Source: Komagataeibacter xylinus NBRC 15237 (lineage in GTDB: Bacteria > Pseudomonadota > Alphaproteobacteria > Acetobacterales > Acetobacteraceae). From it: a stretch of 39,493 nt of DNA. Of the stretch, positions 14,093-30,770 are shown in pieces. Each line of letters begins with the position of its first letter. Position 1 is the stretch's first letter. The position numbers and the translations under genes were made by a program. Below the pieces are notes generated by a model. The model was not told the origin of the DNA, searched no databases, and worked only from the letters and a program-made list of their open reading frames with translations. Location of the stretch: NCBI RefSeq assembly GCF_001571345.1, contig NZ_BCTP01000029.1, positions 1-39,493 on the forward strand, given 5' to 3'.

Positions 14093-14138
14093 CAGAGCCT
14101 TAAATTCACATATGAAATTATCGTTTACTCTAAATATA

Positions 14139-14156: not shown

Positions 14157-14185
14157 ATAATATAAATTCTCTTTTGTAGACCGGA

Positions 14186-14206
14186 TGTTCAGGTTCACGT
14201 CAGGTT
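14186..14206 (+). promoter_or_regulatory. direct-repeat box, copy 1
   Basis: CAGGTT (14190-14195) and CAGGTT (14201-14206) are spaced 11 bases start to start, inside TGTTCAGGTTCACGTCAGG. The same box occurs upstream of the paralogue at 30750-30770 and at 29954-29974. One-helical-turn direct repeats are typical for OmpR-family response regulators. It lies 46 bases before the start of the 14252 gene. Confidence 0.55.
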
Positions 14207-14251
14207 TCTCTGTTACCGTCAGAAAGTCATCGTCGTGATGGCAGGAACTTT

Positions 14252-14755
14252 ATGTACGCCGGGGAACAGACGCTTATTATGCAAAGGATAGTGCGGGATA
14301 GTCTGTATGCAGCCTGTATTTTCTTCCTAGGGGTGTCGGCCGCTTGGGCGGATGATGGGACAGAGGGCATATGTATGACGGTCCGGCATGGTATACGTTT
14401 GCATGTAGATGGCATGTATGGGGGTTATCCCCATTCCGTACTGCGTGACGCCGTGCTGCAGGGCGTGGCGTGCCCCTCTGATGAAGCTGAACGGCATGTC
14501 TTCGGTCTCATTGCCGACCCGCCGCCACACCTGCGTATTTCCGTTACGAGGCCCATGGGGCAGGGGCAGCAGGGGGCGATTTCGGCCCGGCTGTTCTCGC
14601 AGGGGCATTTTGTCATCGGGGAACGCATGTCCCTTTCGCCCCTGGCGCGTTCGCAGTCCCCGTTTTCGGTCACGTCCGAGATCAATCTGCTGATGGCGCG
14701 ACTGTGGAGCGATTTGGCCGAACGGATCAGCCATGGTGGTCGCGCCATTCCATGA
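14252..14755 (+). CDS. exported protein of unrecognised family, copy A
   Basis: 167 residues from the ATG at 14252, with AGGA 5 bases upstream; an ATG at 14279 gives the same mature protein. A signal peptide ends near 'SAAWA'. The mature part has two cysteines ('EGICMTV', 'GVACPS') and strongly conserved blocks 'GIRLHVDG', 'YGGYPHSVLRDAVL', 'GQGQQG' and 'LFSQGHFVIGERMSLSP'. The paralogue at 30192..30674 shares about 94 of 129 aligned residues. No known family is recognised. It begins a coupled operon with a CzcCBA-type pump, so a periplasmic metal-binding or sensing role is plausible but unproven. Confidence 0.75.
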   Translation: MYAGEQTLIMQRIVRDSLYAACIFFLGVSAAWADDGTEGICMTVRHGIRLHVDGMYGGYPHSVLRDAVLQGVACPSDEAERHVFGLIADPPPHLRISVTRPMGQGQQGAISARLFSQGHFVIGERMSLSPLARSQSPFSVTSEINLLMARLWSDLAERISHGGRAIP

Positions 14756-14766
14756 TGGCCTGAAGC

Positions 14767-16014
14767 ATGAACCGCGCCATCCCCCCCATTGTGTCGATCG
14801 CCATGGCCTGTGCCCTGCCATGGATGGCCCTGGCCCAGGACGCCCGCCCTGGCCCATCCTTCCATGAAGCCGTCGGCATGGCCTGGGCGATCGATCCCGT
14901 CCGCACCGAACTTCAGGTCGGCCATCATTCCGCCCGCGCCCGCGCCAGCGCTGCCGGGTCATGGTTTGCCGGCGGCCCGACCCTGTCGGGTGAATACATG
15001 GATGACCACATGCTGGGCAGTAACGAAGGCTATACAACCTATCAGGGCGGCGTGTCGGTGCCGCTGTGGCTGCCGGGGCAGGGCAGCGCCACGAAACAGG
15101 TCGCCAGCGCGGAAGCCGCGTCGATTGATGAGCAGCTCAATGTCGAACACATGGCGCTGTCCATCCGGGTGCTGGACGCAGCTGCCGCCGCCCTGATTGC
15201 CCGTACCCGGATGGATGTGGCCCATGCCCTGTACGATGCGACAGCGCGCATGGCCGGCAATGCGACGCATGCGGTGCATGGTGGGGAACTGGCCTCGGTC
15301 GATGGGCAGATGGCGCAGGCGGCGATGGAGAACGCGCACAATGAACTGGCCCTGGCACAGGAGGAAGCGCAGAACGCGACTACGGCCCTGGAGGTGCTGC
15401 TGGGGCGTCCGGTTGTGCCCGACCTGAGCCGTTATGGCGGCGGCGACGTGACGCAGGCCCGTTTTGTCAGCCCGCGCGACATGGAAGACAACGATCCCCG
15501 CATAAAGGTCGCGCACCGCAATGTGGAAGCCGCCGAAGCGAACATGAAACTGGCGCGCCGTTCGTTCATGCCCAACCCGGAAATCGGCGTGGACGCCATT
15601 CATGAAAAGCAGTACGGCAGCCCGTGGGATGATCGTGTGGGCGTGAATTTCAGCATCCCCCTGCCCAGCGAGGTCCGTAACACGCCCATCATGTCCGAAG
15701 CCCGCAACCGCCTGGCCACGGCCACCAGTCAGGAAACGCAGGCGCGGCGCATGGTGCATCTGGAAATGATGCGCGTGCGTGAACGCCTGATCGCGGCCAC
15801 CACGGCACGACAGGCTACCCGCAGTGCCGCAGAGAATATGGAAAAGCGGGCCCAGGCGCAGGAACGGGCCTGGCGGGTAGGCGAAGGCAGTGTGGATACG
15901 GCGCTTGCCGCCCGGCAGGCGGCCGCCAATACCCGACTGGCCAGTGCCCGGGCTGAGGTGGAGTGGCATGTCGCCAGCATCCGCATGCTGATTGCAACAG
16001 GTGTTGTGCCATGA
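14767..16014 (+). CDS. czcC: CzcC-like outer-membrane efflux protein
   Basis: 415 residues. A signal peptide ends near 'MALAQD'. The sequence shows the TolC-family double repeat of beta strands and long helical hairpins: 'FHEAVGMAWAIDPVRTELQ', a tunnel region rich in Ala, Glu and Gln, then a second half 'DPRIKVAHRNVEAAEANMKLARRSFMPNPEIGVDAI' that is typical of OMF proteins. The CzcC-type outer-membrane factor forms the exit channel of a tripartite RND pump. It starts 11 bases after copy A of the exported protein and overlaps the adaptor gene by ATGA. The symbol marks the family only. Confidence 0.85.
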   Translation: MNRAIPPIVSIAMACALPWMALAQDARPGPSFHEAVGMAWAIDPVRTELQVGHHSARARASAAGSWFAGGPTLSGEYMDDHMLGSNEGYTTYQGGVSVPLWLPGQGSATKQVASAEAASIDEQLNVEHMALSIRVLDAAAAALIARTRMDVAHALYDATARMAGNATHAVHGGELASVDGQMAQAAMENAHNELALAQEEAQNATTALEVLLGRPVVPDLSRYGGGDVTQARFVSPRDMEDNDPRIKVAHRNVEAAEANMKLARRSFMPNPEIGVDAIHEKQYGSPWDDRVGVNFSIPLPSEVRNTPIMSEARNRLATATSQETQARRMVHLEMMRVRERLIAATTARQATRSAAENMEKRAQAQERAWRVGEGSVDTALAARQAAANTRLASARAEVEWHVASIRMLIATGVVP

Positions 16015-17153
16015 AGCGGATTGCCTCCATCCTGTTTCTTCTCGGCCTGCCTGCCCATGCCGGGGAGGGGGCGCTGCCCCCGATCGTGAAGCTGGACGGG
16101 GCGGCGGTTGCCAATGAAGGGGTAACCATCGTCACGGCCAGGCCGGGTCGCGTGGCACCCATGCTGCCGGTCATGAGCCGGGTCATGCCCGATACGACGC
16201 GGGTCGTGCATATCCATCCCGCCGGCAGTGGCAAGGTGCTGGCAGTACTGTTACAGCCCGGAGCATCCGTGCAGCGGGGGCAGGCGCTGGTGCGCTATCA
16301 GGATCATTCCCTGCATGTTGCGCGCCTGCAGGCGGTTCAGATGCGTGCAGCGCTTGCTGCCGCCATTGCGGCCCGGACCGATGCGGCAGGCGCGGTGCAG
16401 CGGGCTAGGGCACTGGCTGGCGAGAGCATATCATTGGCCGAACTGCGCCGCAGGCAGGACGTGCTGGCACAGGCGGATGCCACCATGCGTGCACGCCAGG
16501 CGGATGTGGACACGTTGGGCCACCGTTTTGCCGAGGAGTTCAATTCATCATCGGAGCAGGACAGTCAGGGCGCGGAAGACGAAACCTCGACCCTGATCTC
16601 CCCTGTCAACGGCATGGTGCAGGTGATCGGTACGTCAGTGGCGGGTGATGTGGACCCGAGCATGGATGTGGCTACCGTCGCGGATCTGTCCAGCATATGG
16701 CTTGTTTCTGACATCCCGCCAGACCAGGCAGCGCGGATCGCACCAGGCGGCCAGCAGGTAACGCAGACGGCAGACGGCCCGTTTACATCCCGTATCGATA
16801 CGGTGGACGGCATGGCCAGCCCCCTGACCGGGCTGGTCCGGGTCATAAGCCGTGTGGCCAACCCCACTGGCGCGCTGGTGCCCGGTATGGTGCTGGATTC
16901 CGCACTGGCCCAGCGTGACAGCGTGGCGGGTCTTGTCGTGCCGTCCGAAGCCATCCAGCAGATTGACGGGCATAGCGTCGTGTTCGTGCGGGTGAACGCG
17001 ACGGATTACCGGCCGGTCGTGGTCGATGTGGCACTGGATGACGGGCGGCAGGCAGTGCTGCGTTCCGGCCTGAAAGGGGGCGAGCCGGTGGTGGGTCATG
17101 GTAGTTTTGCCCTGCGTTCCGTCATTGGTCTGGCCGGAATGGATGCAGACTGA
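16011..17153 (+). CDS. czcB: RND efflux adaptor (CzcB-like)
   Basis: 380 residues from 'MKRIASIL' (the ATG overlaps the preceding stop). A short signal peptide ends near 'PAHA'. The mature protein has a barrel-sandwich half ('HIHPAGSGKVLAVLLQPGASVQRGQALVRY'), a helical hairpin (about residues 110-170), and the second lipoyl-like half ('LISPVNGMVQVIGTSVAGDVD'). A beta-barrel and membrane-proximal domain follow ('LVPGMVLDSALAQRDSVAGLVVPSEAI'). This is the periplasmic membrane-fusion protein linking the RND pump to the outer-membrane channel. It is coupled to the pump gene by a one-base overlap. Confidence 0.87.
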   Translation: MKRIASILFLLGLPAHAGEGALPPIVKLDGAAVANEGVTIVTARPGRVAPMLPVMSRVMPDTTRVVHIHPAGSGKVLAVLLQPGASVQRGQALVRYQDHSLHVARLQAVQMRAALAAAIAARTDAAGAVQRARALAGESISLAELRRRQDVLAQADATMRARQADVDTLGHRFAEEFNSSSEQDSQGAEDETSTLISPVNGMVQVIGTSVAGDVDPSMDVATVADLSSIWLVSDIPPDQAARIAPGGQQVTQTADGPFTSRIDTVDGMASPLTGLVRVISRVANPTGALVPGMVLDSALAQRDSVAGLVVPSEAIQQIDGHSVVFVRVNATDYRPVVVDVALDDGRQAVLRSGLKGGEPVVGHGSFALRSVIGLAGMDAD

Positions 17154-20100
17154 TGGCACATGCCTACCTTGCCACCCTGATCCGCGCGCGCATGCTGGTG
17201 CTGGGCGGTCTTGGCCTGCTGCTGGCCGCGGGCATCATGGCTGTCCTGGGCCTGCCGGTGGAAGCGGTGCCGGATATTTCGCCCCGGCAGGTTCTCGTCT
17301 CGGTCGTGGCACCGGGCCTTGCGACGGAGGAAGTGGAAAAACTCATCACCTTTCCCGTCGAGACCAGCATGACCGGCATCCCCGGCATGACCGACCTGCG
17401 TTCCGTATCGCGTGGCGGCGTCTCGGTAGTGTATGTGCAGTTTGCCGATGACACCGACATCAACCTGGACCGCACCCGCGTAAACGAGCGCATACAGCAG
17501 GCGCGTTCAAACATATCCGTGCCCGGCATCACCGTCAGCATGGGGCCGCTGGCCACTGGCATGGGCGAGATCATGCAGTTCCAGATCCGTGGCGCGGGGC
17601 GTTCGCTCATGGAACTCAACCGCATCATGAACTGGACCGTGGTGCCGCAGATGCGTCTTGTACCCGGTGTGGTGGATGTCAACGTCAATGGCGGGGCGGA
17701 AGAAACCTATGAAGTGACGCTGGACCCCGCGCGGCTGATCGGCAGCAACCTTTCGGTGGGCGAAGTCTATCGTGCGGTGGATGCCGGCAACGCGGCATCC
17801 GGCGGCGGATGGATCACGCACCATGCCGAACAGCAGAGCGTGGTCGGACGCGGGCTGGTCGGCAGCCTGGCCGACTTTGGCAACATTGCCGTGCGCACCA
17901 ACCCCGATGGGTCCGCCGTGCGGCTGCGCGATCTTGGCCGCGTGCGCGCAGGCGCGCGCACCCGTCTGGGGGCGGTAACGCGTGACGGGCAGGGCGAGAT
18001 CGTGATCGGCGTGGTGATGATGGAAAGCGGGGCGAGTTCCAACGCAACGCTTGCCGCCATCAACCGTGCGCTGCCGGGCATACGGCAGGCTTTGCCCGCA
18101 GGCGTCACGATCGAACCCTATTACACCCGCGCCACCCTGACCGGGCAGACCATCGCCACCGTGCGTGACAACCTGGTCATGGGCGCCGTGCTGGTGGTGG
18201 GGGTGCTGGTGGTGGTGATCGGGAGCTGGCAGGCCGCCCTTGTCATTGCCTCGGTCATTCCGGTTGCCCTTGTCTGCGCGATGGCGGGCATGCGGCAGTT
18301 CGGTATCTCGGCCAACCTGCTCAGCCTTGGCGCAATCGATTTCGGCATGATTGTCGATGGTTCGCTGGTGGTGATCGAACATGTGCTGTCGCGCAGGGAG
18401 GAGGAGCCGGACGCCGAATTCATTCCGCTGGTCATCTCATCCGTGCAGCAGGTCATGCGCCCGGTGGGGTTTGCCATACTGGTCATCATCATGGTCTATC
18501 TGCCGATCCTGACCCTGCAGGGGATCGAGGGGCACATGTTCCGCCCCATGGCGCAGACGGTCATCATGGCGCTGCTGGCGTCGCTGGCGTACTGCTTCAT
18601 CTGCGTGCCCGTTCTGGCCGCCCTTGCGCTGGGGGGCGTGCGGCCTGCGGGTGATACGCGGCTGATTGCCTTCCTGCGCCGGCCCTATACCCATATGGTG
18701 ACATGGGGGGAAACCCATCCACGCATCCTGTTTGGCGGTACGCTGGTGGTGCTGGCCCTTTCAGCGGGGCTTGCGATGAGGCTGGGCGGTGAGTTCATTC
18801 CCCAGCTTGATGAAGGGGCGCTGGCGGTCACCACCACGCGGCTGCCCTCGGCCTCGCTTGATACGGTTCTGGCGTCAGTCACGAAGCAGGAGCAGATCCT
18901 GCGCCGCTTCCCCGAAGTGCGCGCGGTGGTCAGCAATACCGGCACATCGGCCATTCCCACCGACCCGATGGGCGTGAACGAGACCGACAGCTTCATCTTC
19001 CTCAACCCACCCGCCACATGGAAAACCGCCCGCACGCAGGCGGGGCTGGTCGCCGCGATGGATGATACCCTGCGGCGCGAACTGCCCGATGCGCTGTATT
19101 CATGGAGCCAGCCGGTGCAGATGCGCATGGATGACCTGCTCTCTGGCGTGCGCACGCAGATTGCCGTCTCGATCTTTGGCGATGACCTGGCCATGCTGGC
19201 CGAGCTGGGTGACCGGGTGGTGGCGGCTATGTCCGGCGTGAAGGGGGCAGCGGACGTGGCGGCTGCGGGGGACGGCACCGTGCCGCTGATCGTGGTCGAC
19301 ATTGACCGCACGCAGGCTGCCAGCCGCAATGTGGCGGTGCAGGACATTCTCGATACGGTGGAGGCCATAGGCGGGCATATCGGCGCCCGGCCGGTGATCG
19401 TGGATAACGCCATCATCGGCACGCAGGTCCGCCTTGACCCCCGCGTGGCGACATCCGCCGCCGCCATTGGCGCGCTGCAGGTCCGGCGGATGGACGGGCA
19501 GGGGAATGCGATGCTGTCACAGGTGGCGCATGTGCATGAAGTCGATGGGCCGCCGCGCATAAGCCGCGACCGGGTACGCCGGCGCATGGTGGTGCAGGCC
19601 AATGTGCGCGGGCGTGATCTGTCTTCCTATGTGGCCGAAGCACAGGCCCGTGTGGCGCGGGACGTAAAACTGCCTGCAGGATATAACATGCAGTGGGACG
19701 GGCAGTTCCGTAACCTGCAATCAGCTACAAGGCGGCTGGAGATCGTGCTGCCCGTTGCCCTTGGCCTGATCTTTGCGCTGCTGGTGGTGGCGTTTGGCGC
19801 AGTGCGGCCCGCGCTGCTGGTGTTCGTCAACCTGCCGGTGGCGGCAACCGGCGGCATCGTGGCGCTGACGCTGCGCGGCATGCCGTTCAGCATTTCGGCG
19901 GGGATCGGCTTCATCGCGCTGTTTGGCGTGGCGATCCTGAATGGCGTGGTGCTGGTCAGTGAGATCGCAGCCCTGCGGGCACGGGGAATGGCCGTGGCAC
20001 AGGCGGCCTTTGCGGCCGCGGAATCCCGCTTCCGTCCCGTCATGGCTACAGCCCTTGTCGCCAGCCTTGGCTTTTTTCCCATGGCGTTTTCCGAAAGTGC

Positions 20101-20227
20101 GGGCGCGGAAGTCGAGCGCCCGCTGGCCAGTGTGGTGATCGGCGGGCTGGTCACGTCCACGTTGCTGACCCTGCTTGTGCTGCCATCACTGTATGCCCGG
20201 GTCATGCGGGAAAAGGATCAGGACTGA
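17153..20227 (+). CDS. czcA: CzcA-family heavy-metal RND transporter
   Basis: 1024 residues, the usual length for heavy-metal RND pumps. The start is 'AHAYLATLIRARMLVLGGLGLLLAAGI'. Twelve transmembrane segments are expected in two groups. In the fourth helix is 'DFGMIVDGSLVVIEH' with Asp396, Asp402 and Glu409, corresponding to the proton-relay residues of CzcA (D402, D408, E415 in Cupriavidus). The DFG...DG form is that of the Zn/Co/Cd/Ni group rather than the Cus (Cu/Ag) group. It exports metal to the outside using the proton gradient. It is coupled to the response regulator by an overlap. Confidence 0.9.
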   Translation: MAHAYLATLIRARMLVLGGLGLLLAAGIMAVLGLPVEAVPDISPRQVLVSVVAPGLATEEVEKLITFPVETSMTGIPGMTDLRSVSRGGVSVVYVQFADDTDINLDRTRVNERIQQARSNISVPGITVSMGPLATGMGEIMQFQIRGAGRSLMELNRIMNWTVVPQMRLVPGVVDVNVNGGAEETYEVTLDPARLIGSNLSVGEVYRAVDAGNAASGGGWITHHAEQQSVVGRGLVGSLADFGNIAVRTNPDGSAVRLRDLGRVRAGARTRLGAVTRDGQGEIVIGVVMMESGASSNATLAAINRALPGIRQALPAGVTIEPYYTRATLTGQTIATVRDNLVMGAVLVVGVLVVVIGSWQAALVIASVIPVALVCAMAGMRQFGISANLLSLGAIDFGMIVDGSLVVIEHVLSRREEEPDAEFIPLVISSVQQVMRPVGFAILVIIMVYLPILTLQGIEGHMFRPMAQTVIMALLASLAYCFICVPVLAALALGGVRPAGDTRLIAFLRRPYTHMVTWGETHPRILFGGTLVVLALSAGLAMRLGGEFIPQLDEGALAVTTTRLPSASLDTVLASVTKQEQILRRFPEVRAVVSNTGTSAIPTDPMGVNETDSFIFLNPPATWKTARTQAGLVAAMDDTLRRELPDALYSWSQPVQMRMDDLLSGVRTQIAVSIFGDDLAMLAELGDRVVAAMSGVKGAADVAAAGDGTVPLIVVDIDRTQAASRNVAVQDILDTVEAIGGHIGARPVIVDNAIIGTQVRLDPRVATSAAAIGALQVRRMDGQGNAMLSQVAHVHEVDGPPRISRDRVRRRMVVQANVRGRDLSSYVAEAQARVARDVKLPAGYNMQWDGQFRNLQSATRRLEIVLPVALGLIFALLVVAFGAVRPALLVFVNLPVAATGGIVALTLRGMPFSISAGIGFIALFGVAILNGVVLVSEIAALRARGMAVAQAAFAAAESRFRPVMATALVASLGFFPMAFSESAGAEVERPLASVVIGGLVTSTLLTLLVLPSLYARVMREKDQD

Positions 20228-20898
20228 TGCGTATCCTTATTGTCGAGGATGAATACGATCTGGGTGTGGCGGTGCAGGAGCGCGTGGGTCTGGACGGGCA
20301 TGCCGTGGACTGGTTCACGACGCTGGAGGACGCGCGCGCGGCCATGGCAACGGTGGATTATGATTTCATGCTGCTCGACCTTGGCCTGCCCGATGGAAGT
20401 GGGCGCGACCTGTTGCGTGAGGTCCGTCGGACATCATCAGACATCGCCATCCTCATCACCACGGCGGAAGACCAGATCAGTGACCGTATCGCGGGTCTGT
20501 CCGAAGGGGCAGATGATTATATCGTCAAGCCCTATGACCTGAATGAACTCGTGGCCCGTATTGCGGCAGTGGCCCGCCGGTATGCATCGCCGCGCAGGCA
20601 CGCGCACTGCCGCGTGGGAGAGATTACGATAGACCGGGAGAACCGGTCTGTATCGCGTGATGGCGAGCGGCTGGACCTGACCGCGCGGGAATGGAGCATC
20701 ATGGAACTGCTGTCGCGCAGTCCCGGCCGGATCTATTCGCGCCAGCAGATTGACACCGCGCTGTATGCGCTGGACCGGGACGTGGACAGCAATACCGTCG
20801 AGGTTTTCATCAGCCGCCTGCGGCGCAAGGTCGGCAACACGGTCATCCGGACCATACGCGGCCGTGGCTACTGCCTCGATGCAAGGGACGGCGCATGA
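20227..20898 (+). CDS. OmpR-family response regulator of the pump operon
   Basis: 223 residues. The receiver domain (1-115) has 'IVEDE' (acidic pocket), phospho-acceptor Asp51 in 'LLDLGLP' and Lys101 in 'IVKPYD'. The C-terminal winged-helix domain includes 'LDLTAREWSIMELLSRSPG', 'DSNTVEVFISRLRRKVG' and 'IRTIRGRGYCLD'. It resembles the QseB/TctD subgroup. It is translationally coupled to the pump gene before it and the kinase after it. Such a regulator inside the operon implies autoregulation, and the direct-repeat box at 14186-14206 is a candidate site. Confidence 0.9.
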   Translation: MRILIVEDEYDLGVAVQERVGLDGHAVDWFTTLEDARAAMATVDYDFMLLDLGLPDGSGRDLLREVRRTSSDIAILITTAEDQISDRIAGLSEGADDYIVKPYDLNELVARIAAVARRYASPRRHAHCRVGEITIDRENRSVSRDGERLDLTAREWSIMELLSRSPGRIYSRQQIDTALYALDRDVDSNTVEVFISRLRRKVGNTVIRTIRGRGYCLDARDGA

Positions 20899-22232
20899 AA
20901 AGCTGGAGCCTGTCCACCCGGATCATCAGCAGCGTACTCATGGTCGTGATACTGGGGCTGCTGATCCTCAGTGTCGCGGTAGGTGGATTTACCCGCTACG
21001 AGGTAACGGAACGGCTGGACAACTCGCTTCAGGAAGTTTCCGAGCGCCTGCAGACGGCTGTGGAGACACGACTGCATGATCCGGGTGCGGCGTCATCCAT
21101 CGCCTGGCTGCCGGAAGTCGGGCCACGCACCCTGGCCTATCAGATCGTGGATGTGACCGGGCATGTCGTGCTGCGTTCCCAGAATGCCCCGCAGGACGCA
21201 TTCGAGCGCGCGTGGCGGACCGGGTTTGCTAATGTTCCGCATTTTCGCGTTTATGTCGCGTCACCCGTGGCGGAGAAATACCGCGTTCTTGTGGGGGAAC
21301 CGACCTTCCACCGGCGCGAGGCCGTCCGGCGCGCGATGCTGATCTCTGTCGTGCCCATGCTGCTTTTCATGCCGGTGATCTGGTGGCTGGTGCGCCTGAT
21401 CGTGCGGCGCGCCCTGCGCCCGCTGGACCTGCTGCATGACGAGATGCGCGCACGTGGCAGCGGCAACCTTCAGCCCATTCCCCCCCTTGATCTCCCTGAC
21501 GAACTAGTCTCCATCCAGCGCTCGATCAATACGCTGTTGGCGCGGTTGGAGGCAGCGCTCTCTACCGAGCGCGCCTTTGCCGCAAGCGCTGCGCATGAAC
21601 TGCGTAACCCGCTTGGAGCCCTTCTGGCGCAGGTACAGATGCTGGGCCGACTGATGCCGGCGGGTTCGGATACGGGCCGGCGGGTGGAGCTCATTGCCGA
21701 CCGGACCCGCAGGCTGGGCCGCACGGTGGAAAAACTGCTGCAGTTTTCCCGCGCCTCGTCCGGCGTCGCTTTCCGGCGCGACCGTTTCGACCTGATGACC
21801 GTAGTGCATGTCCTTGTCGATGATCTTGGGCATAATCCGTGTGACGGGCAGGGCATTGTCATCGCGCCAGACGGGATTCACCACATATTCGTACATGGTG
21901 ACATGGATGCGACCGGCATCATGTTGCGCAACCTGCTTGAAAACGCCCTGCTGCATGGAGGGCACCATATGCCCGTGCGGGTGGCCGTGCTACCAGATGG
22001 TGGAATCGACATCACCAATGACTGCCCCGCGCTGCCACCCGGCATATTCCAGCGGCTGACTAGCCCATTCGTGCGCGGCGGGACCGGTAATCATGGCAGT
22101 GGCCTGGGTCTCGCCATTGCCAGTAATATCGCTACCCAAATGGACGTTACTCTGCGCTTACGTTCCCCACTTACAGGATCTGCCAGAGGATTTGGTGTGT
22201 GTGTCACCTTTCCAAACTCGAAGGTAACCTAA
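20895..22232 (+). CDS. QseC/TctE-type sensor histidine kinase
   Basis: 445 residues. Two membrane segments (about 12-32 and 148-170) enclose a periplasmic sensor domain of about 115 residues. A HAMP-like stretch (about 170-215) precedes the dimerisation region with phospho-acceptor His234 ('ASAAHELRNPLGAL'). The catalytic domain has an N-box 'LLRNLLENALLHGG' and G-box 'GSGLGLAIASNIA'. It overlaps the regulator by ATGA, and the two form a pair. The G1 box is short: 'VDITNDCPALPPG' in place of the usual 'DNGPG', so ATP binding may differ. The sensed signal is probably a metal ion or a periplasmic partner. Confidence 0.88.
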   Translation: MKSWSLSTRIISSVLMVVILGLLILSVAVGGFTRYEVTERLDNSLQEVSERLQTAVETRLHDPGAASSIAWLPEVGPRTLAYQIVDVTGHVVLRSQNAPQDAFERAWRTGFANVPHFRVYVASPVAEKYRVLVGEPTFHRREAVRRAMLISVVPMLLFMPVIWWLVRLIVRRALRPLDLLHDEMRARGSGNLQPIPPLDLPDELVSIQRSINTLLARLEAALSTERAFAASAAHELRNPLGALLAQVQMLGRLMPAGSDTGRRVELIADRTRRLGRTVEKLLQFSRASSGVAFRRDRFDLMTVVHVLVDDLGHNPCDGQGIVIAPDGIHHIFVHGDMDATGIMLRNLLENALLHGGHHMPVRVAVLPDGGIDITNDCPALPPGIFQRLTSPFVRGGTGNHGSGLGLAIASNIATQMDVTLRLRSPLTGSARGFGVCVTFPNSKVT

Positions 22233-23041: not shown

Positions 23042-23838
23042 TAGGCTCGGGACACATAGCCAGAACATGACGGTTGCGGTGAGACAGATGGCTGAGAAGA
23101 AGACGGTCGGGCATCTGTTGTAGCGGGTTGCAACCCGCCGCCAGCCCTTGAGCCTTCCGAATATGATCTCGATGCGATTGCGGCGTTTATATTTTCTCTT
23201 GTCGTATCTGACCGGTTTTCCGCGAGATTTCTGTCCTGAAATGCAGGGCTTTTATACCTTTTGCTTCCAGGGCGTCCCTGAACCAGTCGGCGTCATCCCC
23301 GCGATCTCCCGGCATCCATTGTGCTTCAGGAAGACTATCCAGCAGGGCAGCGGCATCGGTATAATCGCTTATCTGTCCCGCAGTCATAAAAAAGCTCAGC
23401 GGTCGCCCACTCTGGTCGGTGATCGCGTGCAGCTTCGTGTTTATGCCCCTCTGGTGCGGCCGATCAAGCGACCTGGATCCCCTTTTTTAGCCGCACGCTC
23501 GAAGCCGTGCGGTGTGCCTGGAGATACGTCGCATCAGTCATGATGGTCTGGGGCTCTGCCTTTCCGGCAGCCAGACCGTCCATCATCCGGGCGCAGATCC
23601 CCATGGCGCCCCAGCGCTTCCAACGGTTTTAGAGCGTCTTATGTGGACCGTATTCCCGGGGCGCATCGCGCCAGCGCAAGCCGTTCCGATTGACAAAAAT
23701 GATGCCGCTCAGCATTCGGCGGTCATCAACGCAGGCTCTACCATGGCTCTTAAAGAAAAAGGGCCGCAGACGCTCCATTTGTTCGTCCGGCAGCCAAAAC
23801 AGGTCGCTCATCTCCAGTCTCCTCACAGAGCCTGAATC
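23040..23838 (-). mobile_element. IS5-family element, decayed
   Basis: The right boundary is AGAGCCTGAATCAG (about 23828-23841) and the left is CTAGGCTCGGGACAC (about 23042-23056). The ends are imperfect inverted repeats sharing TTC-AGGCTC-type cores. The GAGCCTGAAT end is the same as on the remnant at 13326..14092. The transposase inside is broken by several lesions. Confidence 0.75.
23045..23811 (-). pseudogene. IS5-family transposase with several lesions
   Basis: From ATG 23811 (GAGGAGA upstream) the frame reads 'MSDLFWLPDEQMERLRPFF' to 'REYGPHKTL', where a TAA replaces the expected TAT (Tyr) at 23629-23631. The rest follows in shifted frames: 'NRWKRWGAMG', 'MTDATYLQAHRTASS' (first Asp), then an A6G4 run (the usual -1 frameshift site), a missing base near 'GRTRG', and 'TAGQISDYTDAAALLDSLP' with 'PGDRGDDADW' (second Asp). 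After another indel come 'KRRNRIEIIFGRLKGWRR' (Glu) and 'VMFWL'. It is inactive: one nonsense mutation and at least two unscheduled frameshifts. Confidence 0.85.
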
Positions 23839-23855
23839 AGATTCCCGCACTTAAA

Positions 23856-24767
23856 TCAATGGGTTGTTATCATAAGGGATGAAGCCAGTCTGGAAAGCAC
23901 TCGGGGGCTCAACTCGCGTTCATCACCATTTTCCCATTCGACCGCGAAAGTGTGTTGTCGCCATGACACGGACGCTGCGGCTTCATGGGCTACGTGGGCG
24001 AAATGCACCGTGACATTTGCCTGCCGCGCTAACTGACTACTGGCGGAGATCACCATCATGACACCCGCCACGACCATGGCGGCATGACCAATATGGTGAA
24101 ACAAGCGATCATGCAGGTGCGGCAACAGGTACTTCATGATTATTGATGACAGAACCGCCGCCGCAGCAACAGCGATACCCGCAATGCTGGCCCGGGTATT
24201 CAACAGGCCGAACTCAGCGTAGAGAGCGATCTTGAGCACATGCAGCATGATTTCGTTGGCCGCGCGGGTTGCGACGATTTCTTCCTTCCGCAGACCAAGT
24301 CGATAATAAAACCCATTGAACACCAGGCCGACCGCTCCGGTAAAACCGGAAATGAAGCCGGCGGTAGCACCCAGCACGTGCAGTTCGATAGCGTGGGGCG
24401 TTTTCACAGTGACCTGGGGTGCAGGCTTGCGAAAGAGAAGGGGAAGATTCCCCATCAGGAATACGCCAAGAAGTAGCGACAGATAGGCTGGCTCCATACG
24501 GCTCAATGCCCATGCGCCCAGGGCGGCGAAGGGCAACGCGGTGGGCGCAAAATGCCGGACGATGTCCCACCGGATCGCCTGCCGGAACGAGATGATGCGC
24601 GTCGCCGAACTGGCAACTGTCCCGATCGACAGGGCGGCTGGCACCTGAGTGCCAGGCAGCACCAGCCCCAGCAGGGGCATTAGGAGCAGCCCGGCACCGC
24701 CTCCCGACACGGCGCTCAGGCCAAATGCCGCGGCTGATGCAACCAGAATTAGTGACCAGAGCAGCAT
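23856..24767 (-). CDS. TauE/SafE (TSUP) family permease
   Basis: About 303 residues from the ATG at 24767; an in-frame GTG at 24824 would add a polar 19 residues. About eight hydrophobic segments follow the family pattern: 'LSAVSGGGAGLLLMPLL' near the start, 'TQVPAALSIGTVASSATRI', and the mid-protein 'AGFISGFTGAVGLVFNGFYYR' that repeats the first motif. TSUP proteins move sulfur-containing anions or other organic anions. The last 60 residues form an unusual soluble tail with His-rich 'VTVHFAHVAHEAAA'. It lies opposite to the Rrf2 gene and downstream of the kinase gene on the same strand. Confidence 0.82.
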   Translation of the reverse strand: MLLWSLILVASAAAFGLSAVSGGGAGLLLMPLLGLVLPGTQVPAALSIGTVASSATRIISFRQAIRWDIVRHFAPTALPFAALGAWALSRMEPAYLSLLLGVFLMGNLPLLFRKPAPQVTVKTPHAIELHVLGATAGFISGFTGAVGLVFNGFYYRLGLRKEEIVATRAANEIMLHVLKIALYAEFGLLNTRASIAGIAVAAAAVLSSIIMKYLLPHLHDRLFHHIGHAAMVVAGVMMVISASSQLARQANVTVHFAHVAHEAAASVSWRQHTFAVEWENGDERELSPRVLSRLASSLMITTH

Positions 24768-24957
24768 GGTTTGTATGAATCCCGATTTGGATCCCTGCTC
24801 GCCGGGACCGTTGCAGGCGGCCACATCGCATGGGCGCGCGGCATCATTATTTCTGGCGAAAGCTCACGGGGATGTCAGCTTACAATGCCCCAATCTTCAG
24901 TCGTATTTGCACATCTCTAACCAGCCAGGAGGTCTGCTGTCTATGAGGCCGTGAAGG

Positions 24958-26355
24958 CTAGATCTCTATGGGTAATTTAACGATACACCTTACGCCAGGG
25001 TTGTTGTGAGACAAGACGATCGTGCCCCGGTGCAGTTGTACTACGGCTTTCACCATGGTAAGCCCTAGCCCGTTACCGTCATGCGTACGGCTTGTATCAA
25101 GACGGACAAAGCGGTCGAATACCCGAAGCATGGCTTCGTCCGGAATGCCTGGACCATTATCGGCTATTTCTATCGTGATGGTCTTGTCCGAAAGCATTAT
25201 GGTCGCTGTGATGGTGGTCTGGTCAGGCGTATGGCGTACGGCATTCTCGATCAGGTTGGAGAATGCCTGCCGTAAAAGGACTGGATGACCGATGACGGTA
25301 GGGCAGGCGGGAATGATTTCGGTTTCCAGGCGCTGTCCATTGTCTTCGATAACGGAGCGATACGGTTCTAGAACTGATTCCAGAAGTCGTGCGGGATCGA
25401 AGGGTTCCATTTCGTTGTTCCATGCCCCGGACTCAAGTTGCGCCAGCTTGAGCAGCGAGGAAAATATTTCCAATGCGGCATCCAGATCCTCGATTGCACA
25501 CTCGACCTGCTCATGCATGGTATCGGAAGGTCCATGTGCCCCAATGGCGCGCTCAAGATTCTGGCGCATACGCGCCAGCGGGCGGCGCATGTCGTGCGCG
25601 ATGTCATTGGAGACCTGTTTCAGACTTGCAATCAGGTATTCATTCTGGTCGAGCATCGCATTGAGGCTCTCCGAGAGATGATCAAGCTCATCATCCGTGC
25701 CACGTAGCGGGATGCGGCGAGACATATCGCCCTGCATGATGCTCCGTGCCGTCCTGCTTATCGTCTCGATCCATTTCAGGATCAGGTTGCTCAGGAAAAG
25801 GCCGCCCGCTACCCCTATCAGACCAAATCCTGCAATGCCCCACAGGATCGTTGTCCATAATGCGCGTTGGAGATGCGTCAGGGGCGAGGCATCCATGCCC
25901 ACGAAGTAATAGCCGCCGTCATCAAGGCGATAACCTATTCCATAAACGATATCCTGGTTGATTTCTTTCGGCAGGCGATGGGACCATGCCAGCCAGCGTT
26001 CGCCCGGCACTGGTCGCAGATGCAGCATGTTGCCTGCGACAATGACCTGTCCGGAGTCCTGAAGCAAATAATGGAAACCGGGTTCATGTTCGATCAGTCC
26101 TTGCACAACTGGCAGGAGATGACGGACATCCGCAACACCAGCATCTGCAAATGTCTCATGGCTCTCGTTCTCCACTTCCCGGCGGATCTGCTGGCGCATG
26201 GTTGACTGGCTGTAAAGGCCTGACGTTATAGTCATGACCATGCCGCCCAATATAAAAAGACCGGCGAACAACGTGACGATACGAAACGACGTCGTGGCGA
26301 TGATACGTCGTGTCTCCACATTTCGGCGTCGGGATATCCTATTCCACGACATCAT
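24958..26355 (-). CDS. sensor histidine kinase, partner of 27549 regulator
   Basis: 465 residues; the initial codons are ATG ATG and no good ribosome binding site is seen. Two membrane segments (about 25-48 and 165-190) flank a periplasmic domain of about 115 residues. A HAMP linker ('ISRTARSIMQGDMSRRIPLRG') leads to His254 in 'VSNDIAHDMRRPLARM'. The catalytic domain has 'LIENAVRHTPD', 'IADNGPGIPDE' and 'GNGLGLTMVKAVV'. It lies opposite to an OmpR-type regulator gene 1.2 kb away, with an IS1595 element between them, so both may once have shared a short divergent promoter region. Confidence 0.87.
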   Translation of the reverse strand: MMSWNRISRRRNVETRRIIATTSFRIVTLFAGLFILGGMVMTITSGLYSQSTMRQQIRREVENESHETFADAGVADVRHLLPVVQGLIEHEPGFHYLLQDSGQVIVAGNMLHLRPVPGERWLAWSHRLPKEINQDIVYGIGYRLDDGGYYFVGMDASPLTHLQRALWTTILWGIAGFGLIGVAGGLFLSNLILKWIETISRTARSIMQGDMSRRIPLRGTDDELDHLSESLNAMLDQNEYLIASLKQVSNDIAHDMRRPLARMRQNLERAIGAHGPSDTMHEQVECAIEDLDAALEIFSSLLKLAQLESGAWNNEMEPFDPARLLESVLEPYRSVIEDNGQRLETEIIPACPTVIGHPVLLRQAFSNLIENAVRHTPDQTTITATIMLSDKTITIEIADNGPGIPDEAMLRVFDRFVRLDTSRTHDGNGLGLTMVKAVVQLHRGTIVLSHNNPGVRCIVKLPIEI

Positions 26356-26538
26356 TGGACATATTTATCATGTAGCGACATCCTCTCAGGATATGGATGA
26401 CCGGACAAGATCCACCCGTCCCCGATCATGACAGGTCCGGTTGGCATAGGCTCCAGCCCTGTGGCCTGACTTTACCCTCAATGGTCTTTCCGCGTTAACC
26501 CCTTTGCCTTGTCCTGTCCGGAGAGAACTTACCGTCTT

Positions 26539-26546
26539 TTATTTTT
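26539..26546 (+). repeat. target site duplication, left copy
   Basis: TTATTTTT directly before the IS1595 element; an identical copy lies at 27279-27286. Confidence 0.9.
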
Positions 26547-27278
26547 GGGGCTGGCATAGGTAAGCATTATTTGGGACGGTTCACGCGGGCAGTTTAGCCC
26601 ATTGGGTAAGGATTTTCAGGAGTTTTGCAGGCGAGCGGATGTTGAAGCGCCACTCGCACTCGGCCAGGAAGAGATGGAAGTCCTTGCGTGGTATTCCATT
26701 GTATCGCCGCAGATGCCGCTTTGCCTGGCTCCAGAAATTCTCGATGCCGTTGATATGGTTTCTGCCCAGGGCAAGATGCCTGCTGTGGTCGATGCGTTCG
26801 TGATGAAATTCCGAGACATCCAGTTTGTCGTAAGCGTGCCAGGAATCGCTGTAGACGATTGAATCTGGCTGCACTTTCTTTCGAATGATCGACATCAGCG
26901 TCTGATGCCCGGCATTAGGGATCATGACGGCATGGACGCGGCCATGCCGTTTCAGCAGGCCAAAGACAGCCACTTTCCCGGCCGCGCCCCGGCCTCGTTT
27001 TCCTTTGCGATGTCCACCGAAATAGCTCTCATCGACTTCGATTTCACCTGAGATCGGTGCCTCATAAGCAATCTGTTCCGCGATGATCTCTCGCAATTTG
27101 CGGTAATACAGGGTCGCTGTATTGCGATTGACGCCGACAAGTTCGGCAGCACTCCGGGCGGGCGTGCCAGCAACGAAGTGCTCCAGAAGACGCTTTTGGA
27201 TGCTGACAGGCAGCCTGCTGCGACGACGTACTTTCATGCGACATATCAAGCCTCTGTTAGCTTACCTATGCCAGCCCC
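26547..27278 (-). mobile_element. IS1595-family (ISXO2-like) element, intact
   Basis: The ends GGGGCTGGCATAGGTAAGC (26547-26565) and its exact reverse complement (27260-27278) enclose one transposase gene. The 8-bp duplications TTATTTTT on both sides match the 8-bp target duplications known for IS1595-family elements. The flanks are identical and the gene is complete, so the insertion is recent. It separates the kinase and regulator genes. Confidence 0.95.
26581..27237 (-). CDS. IS1595-family transposase
   Basis: 218 residues from the ATG at 27237 ('MKVRRRSRLPVSIQ'); an upstream TTG would add four. Residues 1-70 form the DNA-binding region ('LLEHFVAGTPARSAAELVGVN'). The catalytic domain holds 'SGEIEVDESYFGG' (first Asp), 'DSIVYSDSWHAYDKL' (second Asp) and 'HINGIENFWSQAKRHLRRYNG' with Asn/Glu, as in the ISXO2-like DDE_Tnp family. 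The gene is complete and framed by perfect ends, so the element is probably active. Confidence 0.92.
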   Translation of the reverse strand: MKVRRRSRLPVSIQKRLLEHFVAGTPARSAAELVGVNRNTATLYYRKLREIIAEQIAYEAPISGEIEVDESYFGGHRKGKRGRGAAGKVAVFGLLKRHGRVHAVMIPNAGHQTLMSIIRKKVQPDSIVYSDSWHAYDKLDVSEFHHERIDHSRHLALGRNHINGIENFWSQAKRHLRRYNGIPRKDFHLFLAECEWRFNIRSPAKLLKILTQWAKLPA

Positions 27279-27286
27279 TTATTTTT
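27279..27286 (+). repeat. target site duplication, right copy
   Basis: TTATTTTT directly after the IS1595 element, identical to 26539-26546. Confidence 0.9.
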
Positions 27287-27335
27287 TATATGCCTGCGCG
27301 TACGTAGTATTTGTTTTAATACCGTATAAAATATA

Positions 27336-27366
27336 ATACATATACATCCACATTTATGATATGTAT
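27336..27366. promoter_or_regulatory. inverted repeat upstream of response regulator
   Basis: ATACATAT (27336-27343) and ATATGTAT (27359-27366) are perfect inverted repeats with a 15-base spacer, in an AT-rich region about 180 bases before the regulator start. Could be an operator; AT richness makes chance possible. Confidence 0.3.
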
Positions 27367-27548
27367 CACATGAAATATTGATATTATTTATTCTGTATTC
27401 AATTTGGAGACATGGTCGATACATTAAAAAATGCCAATAATTGTCTATCCATCGTCATGGATGGTGTCATGTAACAATGATTCTGATAACCTGATCAAGA
27501 ACTCAGTCTCGCTGGGCGGGACATTAAATTTGTTGATTGGCCTGCTTC

Positions 27549-28235
27549 ATGACGCTGGTAACACGCCCCCGCCTGCTTTTGGTTGAAGATGACCACGCAA
27601 CTACGGATTACGTGCGGCAGGGACTGGAGGAAAGCGGAATTGACGTGGTTTGTGTCGCTAACGGGACCGATGGATCGCAGCATGCCCTGTCGCAAACGTG
27701 GGATATCGTCATTCTGGATCGCATGCTGCCTGGTCTGGATGGACTGACAATTCTCATGCGCATGCGCTCTTATGCCATCATGACGCCAGTCCTGTTCCTG
27801 ACGACGATGGATGGCGTACCAAGCCGTGTCGCCGGTCTGCGGCATGGTGCGGATGATTACATGATCAAGCCATTTGCATTACGCGAGTTGGTCGCGCGCG
27901 TGCAGGTACTGCTTCGTCGATCATCTTCCTTCCAGCATACAACAATAATGAATGTGGCTGACGTTGAACTCAATCTGCTGACGCTTGCAGTGACACGGAA
28001 TGGCGAAAAGGTTCTTCTGCAGCCTCAGGAACTAAAACTTCTGGAATATTTCATGAGGAATGCAGGCACGGTGCTTTCCCGACAAATGTTGCTGAAGGAT
28101 GTCTGGCATATGGATTTCCCGGTTCGTACGAACATCGTCGAAACGCATATTTGTCGTCTGCGGGAAAAACTGGGGCAGGACGGCCAACCTCTGATCCACA
28201 CCGTCAGGGGTAGCGGTTATGTCATGAGTGCGTGA
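27549..28235 (+). CDS. OmpR-family response regulator
   Basis: 228 residues from ATG 27549 (the reading frame begins earlier at a TTG). The receiver domain has 'LLVEDDH', Asp57 in 'IVILDRMLPG' and the Lys in 'MIKPFALREL'. The winged-helix domain has 'LQPQELKLLEYFMRNAG' and 'NIVETHICRLREKLG', then 'IHTVRGSGYVM'. It resembles the copper/heavy-metal (CopR/CusR) subgroup. It stands opposite to the kinase gene at 24958..26355, its likely partner. Its role in the metal theme of the region is likely but unproven. Confidence 0.88.
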   Translation: MTLVTRPRLLLVEDDHATTDYVRQGLEESGIDVVCVANGTDGSQHALSQTWDIVILDRMLPGLDGLTILMRMRSYAIMTPVLFLTTMDGVPSRVAGLRHGADDYMIKPFALRELVARVQVLLRRSSSFQHTTIMNVADVELNLLTLAVTRNGEKVLLQPQELKLLEYFMRNAGTVLSRQMLLKDVWHMDFPVRTNIVETHICRLREKLGQDGQPLIHTVRGSGYVMSA

Positions 28236-28666
28236 CTCCCTGGCGGTATAGGATGATCTTGCATGCATGCCCGGTTCGGCCATCCTGGATGAGATGGGTA
28301 CGCAAGCAGGATGACCATGGCGTGTAGGCAAATGCCTTTCGGTCCGACATCGTAGTCGGCCATTAACGATCGCAGCGACAACGGAATAGAGATCACTGCG
28401 CATATAATTCGCGTCCCGCAGGAGAAGCGGGGTTCCCATAGCCGCCTTGGGAAAGTCTTCAAGGAAGTTGATGCCCACTATCTATTGCCGGGATAGCATT
28501 ATCCCACAGACCCATTTCTATGTAATATTATATTGTTTTTGTCACGATATAAATGAAATACAAGTCGCATGCAGAGCACTGAAATGACAGCCTTTAATAG
28601 CACAATTACAAGAAGTACATTCACGATATCATTCCATTCGTTCAATATACAGAAATATTTAATACA
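28236..28666. other. 431-base spacer with a decayed frame
   Basis: A minus-strand frame (28478 downwards) begins 'MGINFLEDFPKAAMGTPLLL' and, in the neighbouring frame, continues 'YDVGPKGICLHAMVILLAYPSH'. Both look protein-like but no family is recognised. This may be a shifted gene fragment. Further right the DNA is AT-rich and empty. Confidence 0.3.
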
Positions 28667-29389
28667 TTATGTCTGTACCCCGAATATCCGGCCGATGGCA
28701 GCCGTCACGGCCATCGCTACGATGCCCCAGAATATGACCCGCATTGCCGGACGCCATGGTGAGGCCCCACCTGCACGCGCACCCACGACTCCCAACACCG
28801 CCAGACCAATCAGGGATACAGCGGATACACTCCACGAGACCACGCTGGCTGGCGACAGCAGGGCTGCCAGCACGGGCAGTATGGCACCGGAAGAGAATGC
28901 GCTAGCCGATGCAAAGGCGGCCTGTACCGGGCGCGCCGCAGTCGCGTCCGAAATGCCGAGTTCATCGCGGGCGTGCGCCCCCAGTGCATCATGCTTCATG
29001 AGCTGAAGGGCAACCTTGCGTGACAGAATATCATCCAGGCCACGCTGACGGTATATCCCGGCCAGTTCGCTCACTTCAGCGTCCCAGCTACTGCCAAGCT
29101 CCTTTTTTTCGCGGGCGAGGTCAGCCTTCTCAGAATCCGCCTGCGAGCTAACGGACACATATTCCCCTGCGGCCATGGACATGGCCCCGGCAGCCAGACT
29201 GGAAATTCCAGCCAGCAGGATGCTCCCCTGTGTCGCATGGGCGCTGGCGACACCAATGATCAGGCTGGATGTTGACAGGATACCATCATTCGCCCCCAGA
29301 ACAGCGGCCCGCAGCCAGCCCAGACGGGAGGTCGCGTGGATTTCTTTGGGGCGCAGCGGTATTTTACTTTCCATATTCATCGGATACAT
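28667..29389 (-). CDS. VIT/CCC1-family iron or manganese transporter
   Basis: 240 residues (start ATG 29389; ATG 29380 is possible). Family signatures: 'LRAAVLGANDGILSTSSLIIGVASA', 'GISSLAAGAMSMAAGEYVSVSSQADSEKADLAREKKEL', a charged middle ('LAGIYRQRGLDDILSRKVALQL'), and 'RPVQAAFASASAFSSGAILPVLAAL'. VIT1/CCC1 proteins move Fe(II) or Mn(II) by H+ antiport; the charged middle is the metal-gathering region in plant VIT1. The start overlaps the end of the cytochrome b561 gene by about 20 bases, so the two are coupled. It could serve iron or manganese detoxification. Confidence 0.88.
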   Translation of the reverse strand: MYPMNMESKIPLRPKEIHATSRLGWLRAAVLGANDGILSTSSLIIGVASAHATQGSILLAGISSLAAGAMSMAAGEYVSVSSQADSEKADLAREKKELGSSWDAEVSELAGIYRQRGLDDILSRKVALQLMKHDALGAHARDELGISDATAARPVQAAFASASAFSSGAILPVLAALLSPASVVSWSVSAVSLIGLAVLGVVGARAGGASPWRPAMRVIFWGIVAMAVTAAIGRIFGVQT

Positions 29390-29945
29390 TCCCTGTCAGC
29401 AGCATTCTCTGAAAAACATTGTCCCGGAGAATGAAGTAATGAAAACACGCGGCCAGCGCATGACCCGTGGCAAGCACGATGATCAGCCAGCCATTCCACT
29501 GGTGCAGCCAGTGCAGAATGCCGACTGTCGATGTCGGAAACCTGCCAAAGGGCGGCATGATCTGGATGGACAGGAAACTCATGGCCTGCCCATTGCCCCA
29601 TCGCCACAGATATCCCAGGAGGATTTCCAGCAGGACTAAACCATACAGGCTGTACTCCACGCAGCGCGCCAGCATGGCATCAAGCCAGCGATCGGCGGCG
29701 CGGATCTGCCGTCCCCAGCCTAGTCGCCATAGCAGGCGTGCGGGAAACAGAACGCTCAGTACCATGCCTGCCGTCAGGTGGGTCACCACCAGTTGATGGT
29801 GTAGCGGGTTCCGGAACAGGCCCCATAAATTCGCGGTTGCGAACTGCAGTATGATAATGGCCGTGCATCCCCAGTGGAAAATGATTGTTGGTGCGTCATA
29901 ACGTGCTGGGGAAAGGCCAGATTTGTATTTCATCCGAACGATCAT
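29364..29945 (-). CDS. cytochrome b561-type membrane protein
   Basis: 193 residues from ATG 29945 (ATG 29933 is possible). Four membrane helices carry histidines at the usual haem b sites: 'IIFHWG', 'VVTHLTAGM', 'ILHWLHQWNGW' and 'VLATGHALAACFHYF'. This is the prokaryotic di-haem b561 family (CybB/YodB), which passes electrons between quinol and acceptors. Its gene overlaps the VIT gene, suggesting linked function such as ferric reduction with iron export or storage. A direct-repeat box (29954-29974) sits 8 bases before the ATG. Confidence 0.85.
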   Translation of the reverse strand: MIVRMKYKSGLSPARYDAPTIIFHWGCTAIIILQFATANLWGLFRNPLHHQLVVTHLTAGMVLSVLFPARLLWRLGWGRQIRAADRWLDAMLARCVEYSLYGLVLLEILLGYLWRWGNGQAMSFLSIQIMPPFGRFPTSTVGILHWLHQWNGWLIIVLATGHALAACFHYFILRDNVFQRMLLTGNVSDEYGK

Positions 29946-29953
29946 ATCACTCA

Positions 29954-29974
29954 AACATGACGCGAACCTGAACG
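29954..29974 (-). promoter_or_regulatory. direct-repeat box, copy 3
   Basis: On the minus strand CAGGTT (29970-29965) and CATGTT (29959-29954) are spaced 11 bases. The intervening bases match the other copies except for one base (CGCGT rather than CACGT). It lies only 8 bases before the b561 ATG, so the promoter is either farther upstream or the box overlaps it as a repressor site. Confidence 0.5.
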
Positions 29975-30191
29975 ATTGGCCGCCTTGCCGATACCTGCGG
30001 TCCGTTGGTGTTCAGACTGTAAAAAAAGAATGGAGATGGTAAACCCACGACGACACCGGCAGCGAGCAAGGAACCTGTATCCAGATAACTGTGTGGCGCC
30101 CGTGACCTAATGACATCGCAGAATATGTGCAAGCTACGGCCATTTTCGGTAAACCGGATCGCAAATGTGATGGACTGAGCTTGTTTCCCCG

Positions 30192-30674
30192 TTATGGAAT
30201 GGCACGCTTCCCCTGTGCGATCCGGTTCGCCAGATCGCCCCATAGGCGTGCTGTTGCAAGGTTGATGTCTGCCTTTACCGAAAAAGGAGACTGGGTGCGT
30301 GAGAAAGGAGAGAGGGACATCCGTTCGCCGATAACGAAATGCCCTTGTGAAAACAGCATGATGGACAGCGATCCCTGCTGGCCCTGCCCGATGGGGCGCA
30401 TGACGGCAATACGCATATGGGGCGGCGGTATCGCAATGGTATGGAAAGCGCGTAGTTCTGCATCCCCCGAAGGACAGGCTACGCTCTCCAGCACCGCATC
30501 ACGCAGGACGGAATGGGGATATCCGCCATACGTGCCGTCGACATGCAGCCGGATACCCTGTTCCACTGTCTCGCAAATACCGTTTGTTTCTGTTTCTGTT
30601 TCGGCGCGCGCCACACAGCCGGATATGCTGACTATCATCAGGATTGCCAATCCGTAATGCACTATCGATCTCAT
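30192..30674 (-). CDS. exported protein of unrecognised family, copy B
   Basis: 160 residues from ATG 30674 ('MRSIVHYGLAILMIVS'). AGGAGG lies 13 bases upstream, rather far; an in-frame GTG at 30698 is the alternative. The signal ends 'VSISGC', which fits a lipobox, so copy B may be a lipoprotein whereas copy A is not. The two conserved Cys and the 'YGGYPHSVLRDAVL' and 'LFSQGHFVIGERMSLSP' blocks match copy A (14252..14755) at about 94 of 129 positions. It lies upstream of the b561-VIT pair on the same strand, with a 246-base gap. Confidence 0.75.
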   Translation of the reverse strand: MRSIVHYGLAILMIVSISGCVARAETETETNGICETVEQGIRLHVDGTYGGYPHSVLRDAVLESVACPSGDAELRAFHTIAIPPPHMRIAVMRPIGQGQQGSLSIMLFSQGHFVIGERMSLSPFSRTQSPFSVKADINLATARLWGDLANRIAQGKRAIP

Positions 30675-30749
30675 AATATTTGTCCGGCCTCCTGGCACCT
30701 GACCCTGGCCATGCCATCATGCCGATGCTCGCTGTTCTTGTAACACGCA

Positions 30750-30770
30750 GACATGACGTGAACCTGAACA
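30750..30770 (-). promoter_or_regulatory. direct-repeat box, copy 2
   Basis: On the minus strand TGTTCAGGTTCACGTCATG: CAGGTT (30766-30761) and CATGTC (30755-30750) spaced 11 bases. The segment agrees with copy 1 at 19 of its first 20 bases. It lies about 75 bases before the copy B start, as copy 1 lies about 46 bases before copy A. Confidence 0.55.

Follow-up and report, generated by a model that had tools for sequence, protein, structure and literature searches.

The 39,493 nt stretch of Komagataeibacter xylinus NBRC 15237 analysed here (contig NZ_BCTP01000029.1, hereafter the window) contains three copies of a direct repeat, CAGGTT-N5-CAKGTY, which the original prediction had put forward as the mark of a candidate regulon. 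The three copies were recovered without mismatches at 14190-14206 on the forward strand and at 29954-29970 and 30750-30766 on the reverse strand, and each is on the same strand as the gene downstream. The conserved unit is longer than this 17-mer, and is described below as a 20-mer box, TTCAGGTTCRCGTCAKGTYT, derived from the three window sites themselves: box 1 (TTCAGGTTCACGTCAGGTTT, 14188-14207, forward strand, with half-sites at 14188-14195 and 14199-14206), box 2 (TTCAGGTTCGCGTCATGTTT, 29953-29972, reverse strand) and box 3 (TTCAGGTTCACGTCATGTCT, 30749-30768, reverse strand).

Box 1 heads an operon on the forward strand starting with a gene for an exported protein (exp1, 14279-14755), followed by genes for an outer-membrane efflux protein of the OEP/TolC family (OMF, 14767-16014), a periplasmic adaptor of the CusB/HlyD type (MFP, 15963-17153, 5′ start uncertain) and an RND pump of the CusA/CzcA heavy-metal family (17153-20227), which scored 893.2 bits against a cut-off of 701.45 for TIGR00914 (CusA/CzcA) and has ZneA as nearest solved structure by sequence. 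The fifth gene encodes an OmpR-family response regulator nearest to PmrA/QseB (RR1, 20227-20898), and is followed by that of its proposed partner, a sensor histidine kinase nearest to PmrB/QseC (HK1, 20895-22232). The exp1 ATG is located at box position 92; an alternative ATG at 14252 is possible, but as most exp1 genes of relatives keep the ATG at about position 92, the window gene probably starts at 14279. Box 3 precedes exp2 (30192-30674, reverse strand, ATG at box position 95), a paralogue 65% identical to exp1. This family is not named by Pfam (exp1 and exp2 scanned) or NCBIfam (exp2 scanned), and two cysteines are invariant in an alignment of 27 members. Box 2 precedes, on the reverse strand, genes for a cytochrome b561-family protein (29364-29933) and a VIT-family transporter (28667-29389), with the VIT reading frame overlapping the b561 end and both the VIT1 and b561 domains being clear in Pfam. 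The earlier placement of two copies upstream of the exported-protein paralogues and the third beside the b561-VIT pair was thus correct, although "beside" is too weak for the copy at 29954, where the 20-mer begins 39 bases ahead of an in-frame b561 ATG. The agreement in 19 of 20 bases claimed for copies 1 and 2 applies only to the pair at 14186 and 30750 with the last base left out, and fails for the other pairs: the 21-base stretches match in 19/21 bases for 14186 and 30750, and in 18/21 for 14186 and 29954 as well as for 29954 and 30750.

A scan of the host genome (3,623,622 bases) with the exact 17-mer, which had been suggested as a check, gave only three matches, all in this window and each before a gene, with none for the reversed control. 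Base composition predicts about 0.017 such matches in the window and about 1.5 in the genome, so the count by itself is unremarkable (Poisson 0.20, not significant), and matches to the 17-mer with two mismatches in the window represent noise (14 versus 9.1 expected). The unusual part is the presence of three copies within one 16.6-kb stretch, each before a gene, together with their gene context. When up to three mismatches to the 20-mer were allowed, four matches were obtained in the host genome (reversed control: two), the fourth being located with two mismatches at C4:35681, at the head of a second exp-OMF-MFP-RND-RR1-HK1 operon (G000:C4:35681-42371, L140).

Conservation in related genomes, also suggested as a check, was clearly seen. 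All 19 genomes of the genus carried at least one perfect 20-mer, and 77 sites were found with up to three mismatches, 67 of them with at most two; 65 of these 67 (including G209:C176) lie before exp1, exp2, b561 or OMF genes of this system. Searching named genomes with the exp protein gave 33 loci, in Komagataeibacter and Novacetimonas plus single representatives of Gluconacetobacter entanii and Acetobacter okinawensis. As retrieval relied on the protein and not on the box, this set is unbiased by the latter; all 33 loci have a box at most 400 nt upstream (25 with no, two with one and six with two mismatches). Among 200 genomes of the family, nine of which have the exp protein, 34 sites with at most two mismatches were detected, 21 of them before genes of this system; at zero or one mismatch this was 16/17. 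Two Acetobacter plasmids inspected later, of which a close relative (G169) was already in the earlier set, carry the box in the two expected locations, one ahead of exp and the other between HK1 and VIT. Many of the box sites are recent plasmid copies. At three loci (L145, L150 and L156) exp1 is apparently decayed or truncated though the box and pump are kept, and at L153 (2495-9818) the box is followed by exp1 and then by genes for a CobW GTPase, an alcohol dehydrogenase and another RND protein.

The boxes have a fixed relation to predicted promoter elements. The predicted -10 of box 1 (TACCGT with an upstream TG, 14214-14219, forward strand) is located at box positions 27-32, and predicted extended -10 sequences follow box 2 (TG-A-TATGAT, 29941-29946, reverse strand) and box 3 (TG-T-TACAAG, 30737-30742, reverse strand). 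Half-site 1 covers the expected -35 position, and the promoters have no recognisable -35. A weighted profile of boxed promoters shows TTCAGGTT and GTCAKGTT at an 11-bp pitch, with 1.0-2.0 bits per base, followed by TG-n-TATNNT, in which the -10 occupies positions 27-32 and its TA carries 1.3 and 1.8 bits; flanking positions mostly stay under 0.3 bit, with the G preceding the box reaching 1.4 bits. In diverged genomes the spacer varies more than the half-sites, while the pitch and the distance to the -10 are constant. The direct repeat with half-sites 11 bp apart, as originally described, is therefore kept across relatives, and a pair of direct half-sites separated by one helical turn (10-11 bp) is the arrangement of OmpR/PhoB-family tandem operators. 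A search with the half-sites and TA at positions 27-28, leaving the spacer free, gave 30 matches in 23/299 genomes, using a pattern written after many of the matching sequences had been seen. Every match precedes exp1 or OMF, 29 of them at the pump operon and the remaining one (G209:C144) ahead of an exp1 gene with other neighbours. A weight matrix trained without sequences more than 70% like those of the window ranked the window sites 1-3 (scores 45.2, 38.4 and 35.3), with the next at 2.6. The gene association, the 11-bp repeat and the -10 at a fixed distance support the earlier reading as an OmpR-family regulon box, as far as can be predicted from sequence.

Two OmpR-family regulators had been noted in the window, with the question of which one binds the box left open; co-occurrence and position favour RR1. 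It has both a receiver and a winged-helix domain above cut-off (Response_reg 78 bits, Trans_reg_C 72 bits), its best model scores are for PmrA and QseB, and its best solved-structure relatives by sequence are BasR/PmrA. Relatives of RR1 (E<=1e-70) are present in 16/200 family genomes, and all 16 of these genomes have a box, either at the RR1 operon or at b561/VIT: nine at up to two mismatches, five at three or four mismatches heading the pump operon, and two detected by the weight matrix as the top matches before OMF (scores 26.2 and 25.5). RR1 was found in 9/10 boxed genomes compared with 7/190 others (Fisher test, p ~1e-10). In the genome G079, the box is located 2.7 kb from a weaker RR1-HK1 pair (55/52%), which was found through its box and was left out of the count. 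The box is directly between HK1 and VIT or b561-VIT in L008, L032, L045, L046, L061, L064 and L144. The RR1 of the second host operon on C4 is 78% identical to the window RR1, and having such a diverged copy of the pump operon, complete with RR1 paralogue and two-mismatch box, in the same genome suggests cross-talk.

The position of the b561 start codon relative to the box is nearly constant. The ATG is at box position 40 in the window, at the predicted transcription start, and is at position 39 or 40 in 13/14 distinct boxed b561 promoters (some near-identical, with L010 as the exception). In G189:C33 it is likewise at position 40. With the ATG at a fixed spacing where the -10 predicts the start of transcription, the b561-VIT mRNA is probably leaderless. 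A further in-frame ATG is present at box position 28 in the window, inside the predicted -10, and in some boxed b561 promoters an additional in-frame ATG likewise occurs at 24 or 28, within or ahead of the -10. Degenerate boxes were detected at the b561 genes of L058, L051, L062 and L182, with matrix scores of 22.3, 18.1, 10.3 and 14.2, respectively. The last of these is in the host genome (G000:C59:1991-2018), flanked by a second b561 gene (51%) and a VIT gene (76%) that are divergently arranged, and is a weak candidate for a fifth member of the host regulon.

Upstream of box 1 there is a Fur-like palindrome (AGAAATGATAATCATTTTC, 14138-14156, no strand assigned), with its core centre 41 bp upstream of the box. 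The Fur box consensus is a 7-1-7 palindrome, TGATAATNATTATCA, to which 14143-14157 has a single mismatch. The sequence AATGATAATCATT, with at most two differences and within 110 bp upstream, is present in 20/57 distinct promoter rows, comprising all 19 exp1-type pump or exp1 promoters and L143. The palindrome centre precedes the box by either 40-41 or 49-53 bp, and these two groups differ by about one helical turn (~10 bp). The other 37/57 rows, including exp2-class pump promoters such as the C4 copy of the host, lack it. The L143 box (4455) precedes a dehydrogenase and an RND-like gene and carries the same palindrome. Similar palindromes (<=2 mismatches) are found at 16 places in the host genome, versus four in the control; ten proteins encoded near them were scanned, of which ExbB, PepSY_TM and perhaps Peripla_BP_2 look iron-related and the others do not. 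Two overlapping Fur-like palindromes are located around position 1500 of L185 (G000:C64:4611-4631), next to a gene for a thiamine-pyrophosphate enzyme. The promoter palindrome is likely to be read by Fur.

Taken together, we propose with good confidence that the box is the operator of RR1, and that the three window promoters (four in the genome, plus the weak candidate) form one metal-stress regulon, very probably with one two-component system switching on the three promoters together under metal stress. HK1 would sense an excess of divalent metal outside the inner membrane, upon which phosphorylated RR1, judging from its family and the geometry of the site, would dimerise and bind head to tail to the pair of TCAGGTT-type half-sites with its 11-bp pitch. 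Half-site 1 stands in for the -35 and half-site 2 is in the spacer, 7 bp before the extended -10, and from this arrangement we infer that RR1 recruits RNA polymerase. The predicted targets are exp1-OMF-MFP-RND-RR1-HK1, which would give positive feedback, exp2, and b561-VIT, the mRNA of which would begin at or next to its AUG given the fixed spacing. At the exp1-type pump box, the palindrome lying ~40 or 50 bp upstream may give that promoter only an iron input, presumably via Fur. A wider and decidedly speculative picture is that a PmrA-like system of acetic acid bacteria, often plasmid-borne, couples two layers of metal export, an RND trans-envelope pump (controlled by RR1 and by iron-sensing Fur in helical phase upstream) and a leaderless b561-VIT, with the pump being iron-responsive or iron-exporting and exp serving as dedicated periplasmic metal-handling partner; we consider this doubtful as a whole.

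Several observations weigh against the assignment of the box to an RR1-activated regulon. The -10 of box 1 is poor and weaker than those of boxes 2 and 3 (rank fraction 0.022), and the profile was built from 56 distinct promoters, about 29 effective, many being near-identical plasmid copies. Because similarity to the 20-mer was the selection criterion for these promoters, conservation inside the box is inflated; the -10 and the preceding G were outside that choice and their conservation is not. In the genus scan with up to three mismatches the control gave 14 sites against 77, and two of the 67 sites with at most two mismatches (L143 and L146) have no member gene directly downstream. In the family scan, 13 of the 34 sites are in unrelated places, compared with one site for the reversed-pattern control, which therefore understates chance. 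The box is also not uniform at its b561 target, as of 20 distinct b561 upstream regions 14 have it at zero or one mismatch, two at three and four at four to six. RR1 scored 183.6 bits against the NCBIfam PmrA cut-off of 330, was also below the QseB cut-off, and reached 166 bits against 279.2 for TIGR01387 (CusR/CzcR/CopR), which RR2 also missed with 217.6, so that RR1 specificity cannot be borrowed from any of these models. A regulator that is unlinked and always travels with RR1 may instead bind the box. Binding and phosphorylation of RR1, transcription and the metal response are all predictions, and activation is read from a site over the -35/-10 spacer, which could also repress.

This last point makes a repressor site for RR1, relieved by metal, worth weighing, as repressors also bind in the promoter spacer that the box overlaps. 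The promoters lack a recognisable -35, however, and RR1-HK1 is inside the operon it would control; both are usual for PmrA/PhoB-type activated promoters, which belong to self-amplifying systems, and we consider repression improbable. Equally improbable in our view is binding of the box by the second regulator of the window, RR2 (27537-28235). This is an OmpR-family protein with its best scores against heavy-metal regulator models (CusR/CopR group), though under the family cut-off, and its gene adjoins b561-VIT here as well as in relatives, L035 among them. Of the ten boxed genomes (<=2 mismatches), though, three have a near-identical RR2, G079 has one at 57% and G022 at only 50%, and five (G060, G184, G073, G142 and G169) have none at E<=1e-60, in a tally scoring the best 14 candidates per genome; in these last five and in G022 the RR1 pump operons are boxed. 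Conversely, RR2 relatives at ~50% identity are present in dozens of genomes without a gene-associated box.

A fixed distance to the -10 and a position nearly always before genes would also fit a box that forms the core of a promoter for an alternative (ECF) sigma factor, TTCAGGTTC serving as the -35. Against this, conservation is as strong at the second half-site, which lies in the spacer, as at the first, and an 11-bp repeat is explained without any sigma factor; the -10 is of the ordinary extended TATNNT type, and the Pfam scan, which covered 20 window proteins and not the remainder of the genome, revealed no ECF gene. We rate this as marginally less probable still than repression or RR2. 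That the boxes arose by chance or are functionless leftovers of copied promoters could be argued from copies 1 and 3, which precede paralogues, are 75% alike across 60 bases from the box onward and may be promoter paralogues. Box 2, however, precedes an unrelated gene and can be aligned with copy 1 over the 21-base box stretch only, with ungapped upstream flanks alike in just 11-19/60 bases, and with the box kept at every protein-fetched locus we give this explanation next to no credence. An operator for RR1 is thus the favoured reading, in so far as gene content and site geometry can tell.

The window (1-39493) corresponds to plasmid DNA, namely pGX5 of K. xylinus E25, typed as conjugative, and p1 of CGMCC 21569. 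Plasmids of several Komagataeibacter species carry the metal-resistance island at ~98-99% DNA identity, and proteins 99-100% identical to those of the window are also present in Novacetimonas maltaceti, suggesting that parts of the region moved recently. An IS1595-type transposase gene at 26581-27249 separates HK2 and RR2, where K. xylinus CGMCC 21569 (L035) and E25 have a gap of only ~440-460 bases, and looks like a recent insertion. Immediately ahead of the pump promoter lies a gene (13400-14080) that the K. xylinus E25 annotation calls a transposase. For this plasmid-borne metal-resistance island the analysis provides a defined operator, a likely regulator and a list of targets. Through the box, the exp family and the b561-VIT pair are linked to a metal-efflux operon, opening their function to testing, and its fixed distance to the b561 start offers a clean test case for a regulated leaderless mRNA.

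A literature search found no description of this box among the papers listed, and comparison with known systems shows partial likeness to three of them. The CusRS/CzcRS/CopRS systems likewise pair an OMF-MFP-RND heavy-metal operon with a dedicated two-component system, but RR1 is nearer to PmrA/QseB and below the cut-off for heavy-metal regulators. The operator of CusR-type regulators is an inverted repeat, which is not what the box shows. The UzcR regulon of Caulobacter is, like the one proposed here, an alphaproteobacterial metal-responsive two-component regulon of secreted and membrane proteins, but its motif (m_5, CATTAC-N6-TTAA) is not matched by the box (PMC8963506). Closest in geometry is the enterobacterial PmrA (BasR) box, which consists of two head-to-tail 6-bp half-sites 5 bp apart, of the type CTTAAT-N5-CCTAAG (PMC3973317), giving the same 11-bp pitch, with the -35 lying at half-site 1 (PMC4660055). 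The half-sites found here are TCAGGTT-like and unlike CTTAAT/CCTAAG, the targets here are metal efflux and VIT genes, and RR1 is under the PmrA model cut-off. This is a new regulon of a known type, combining PmrA/PhoB-type promoter geometry with a box of its own.

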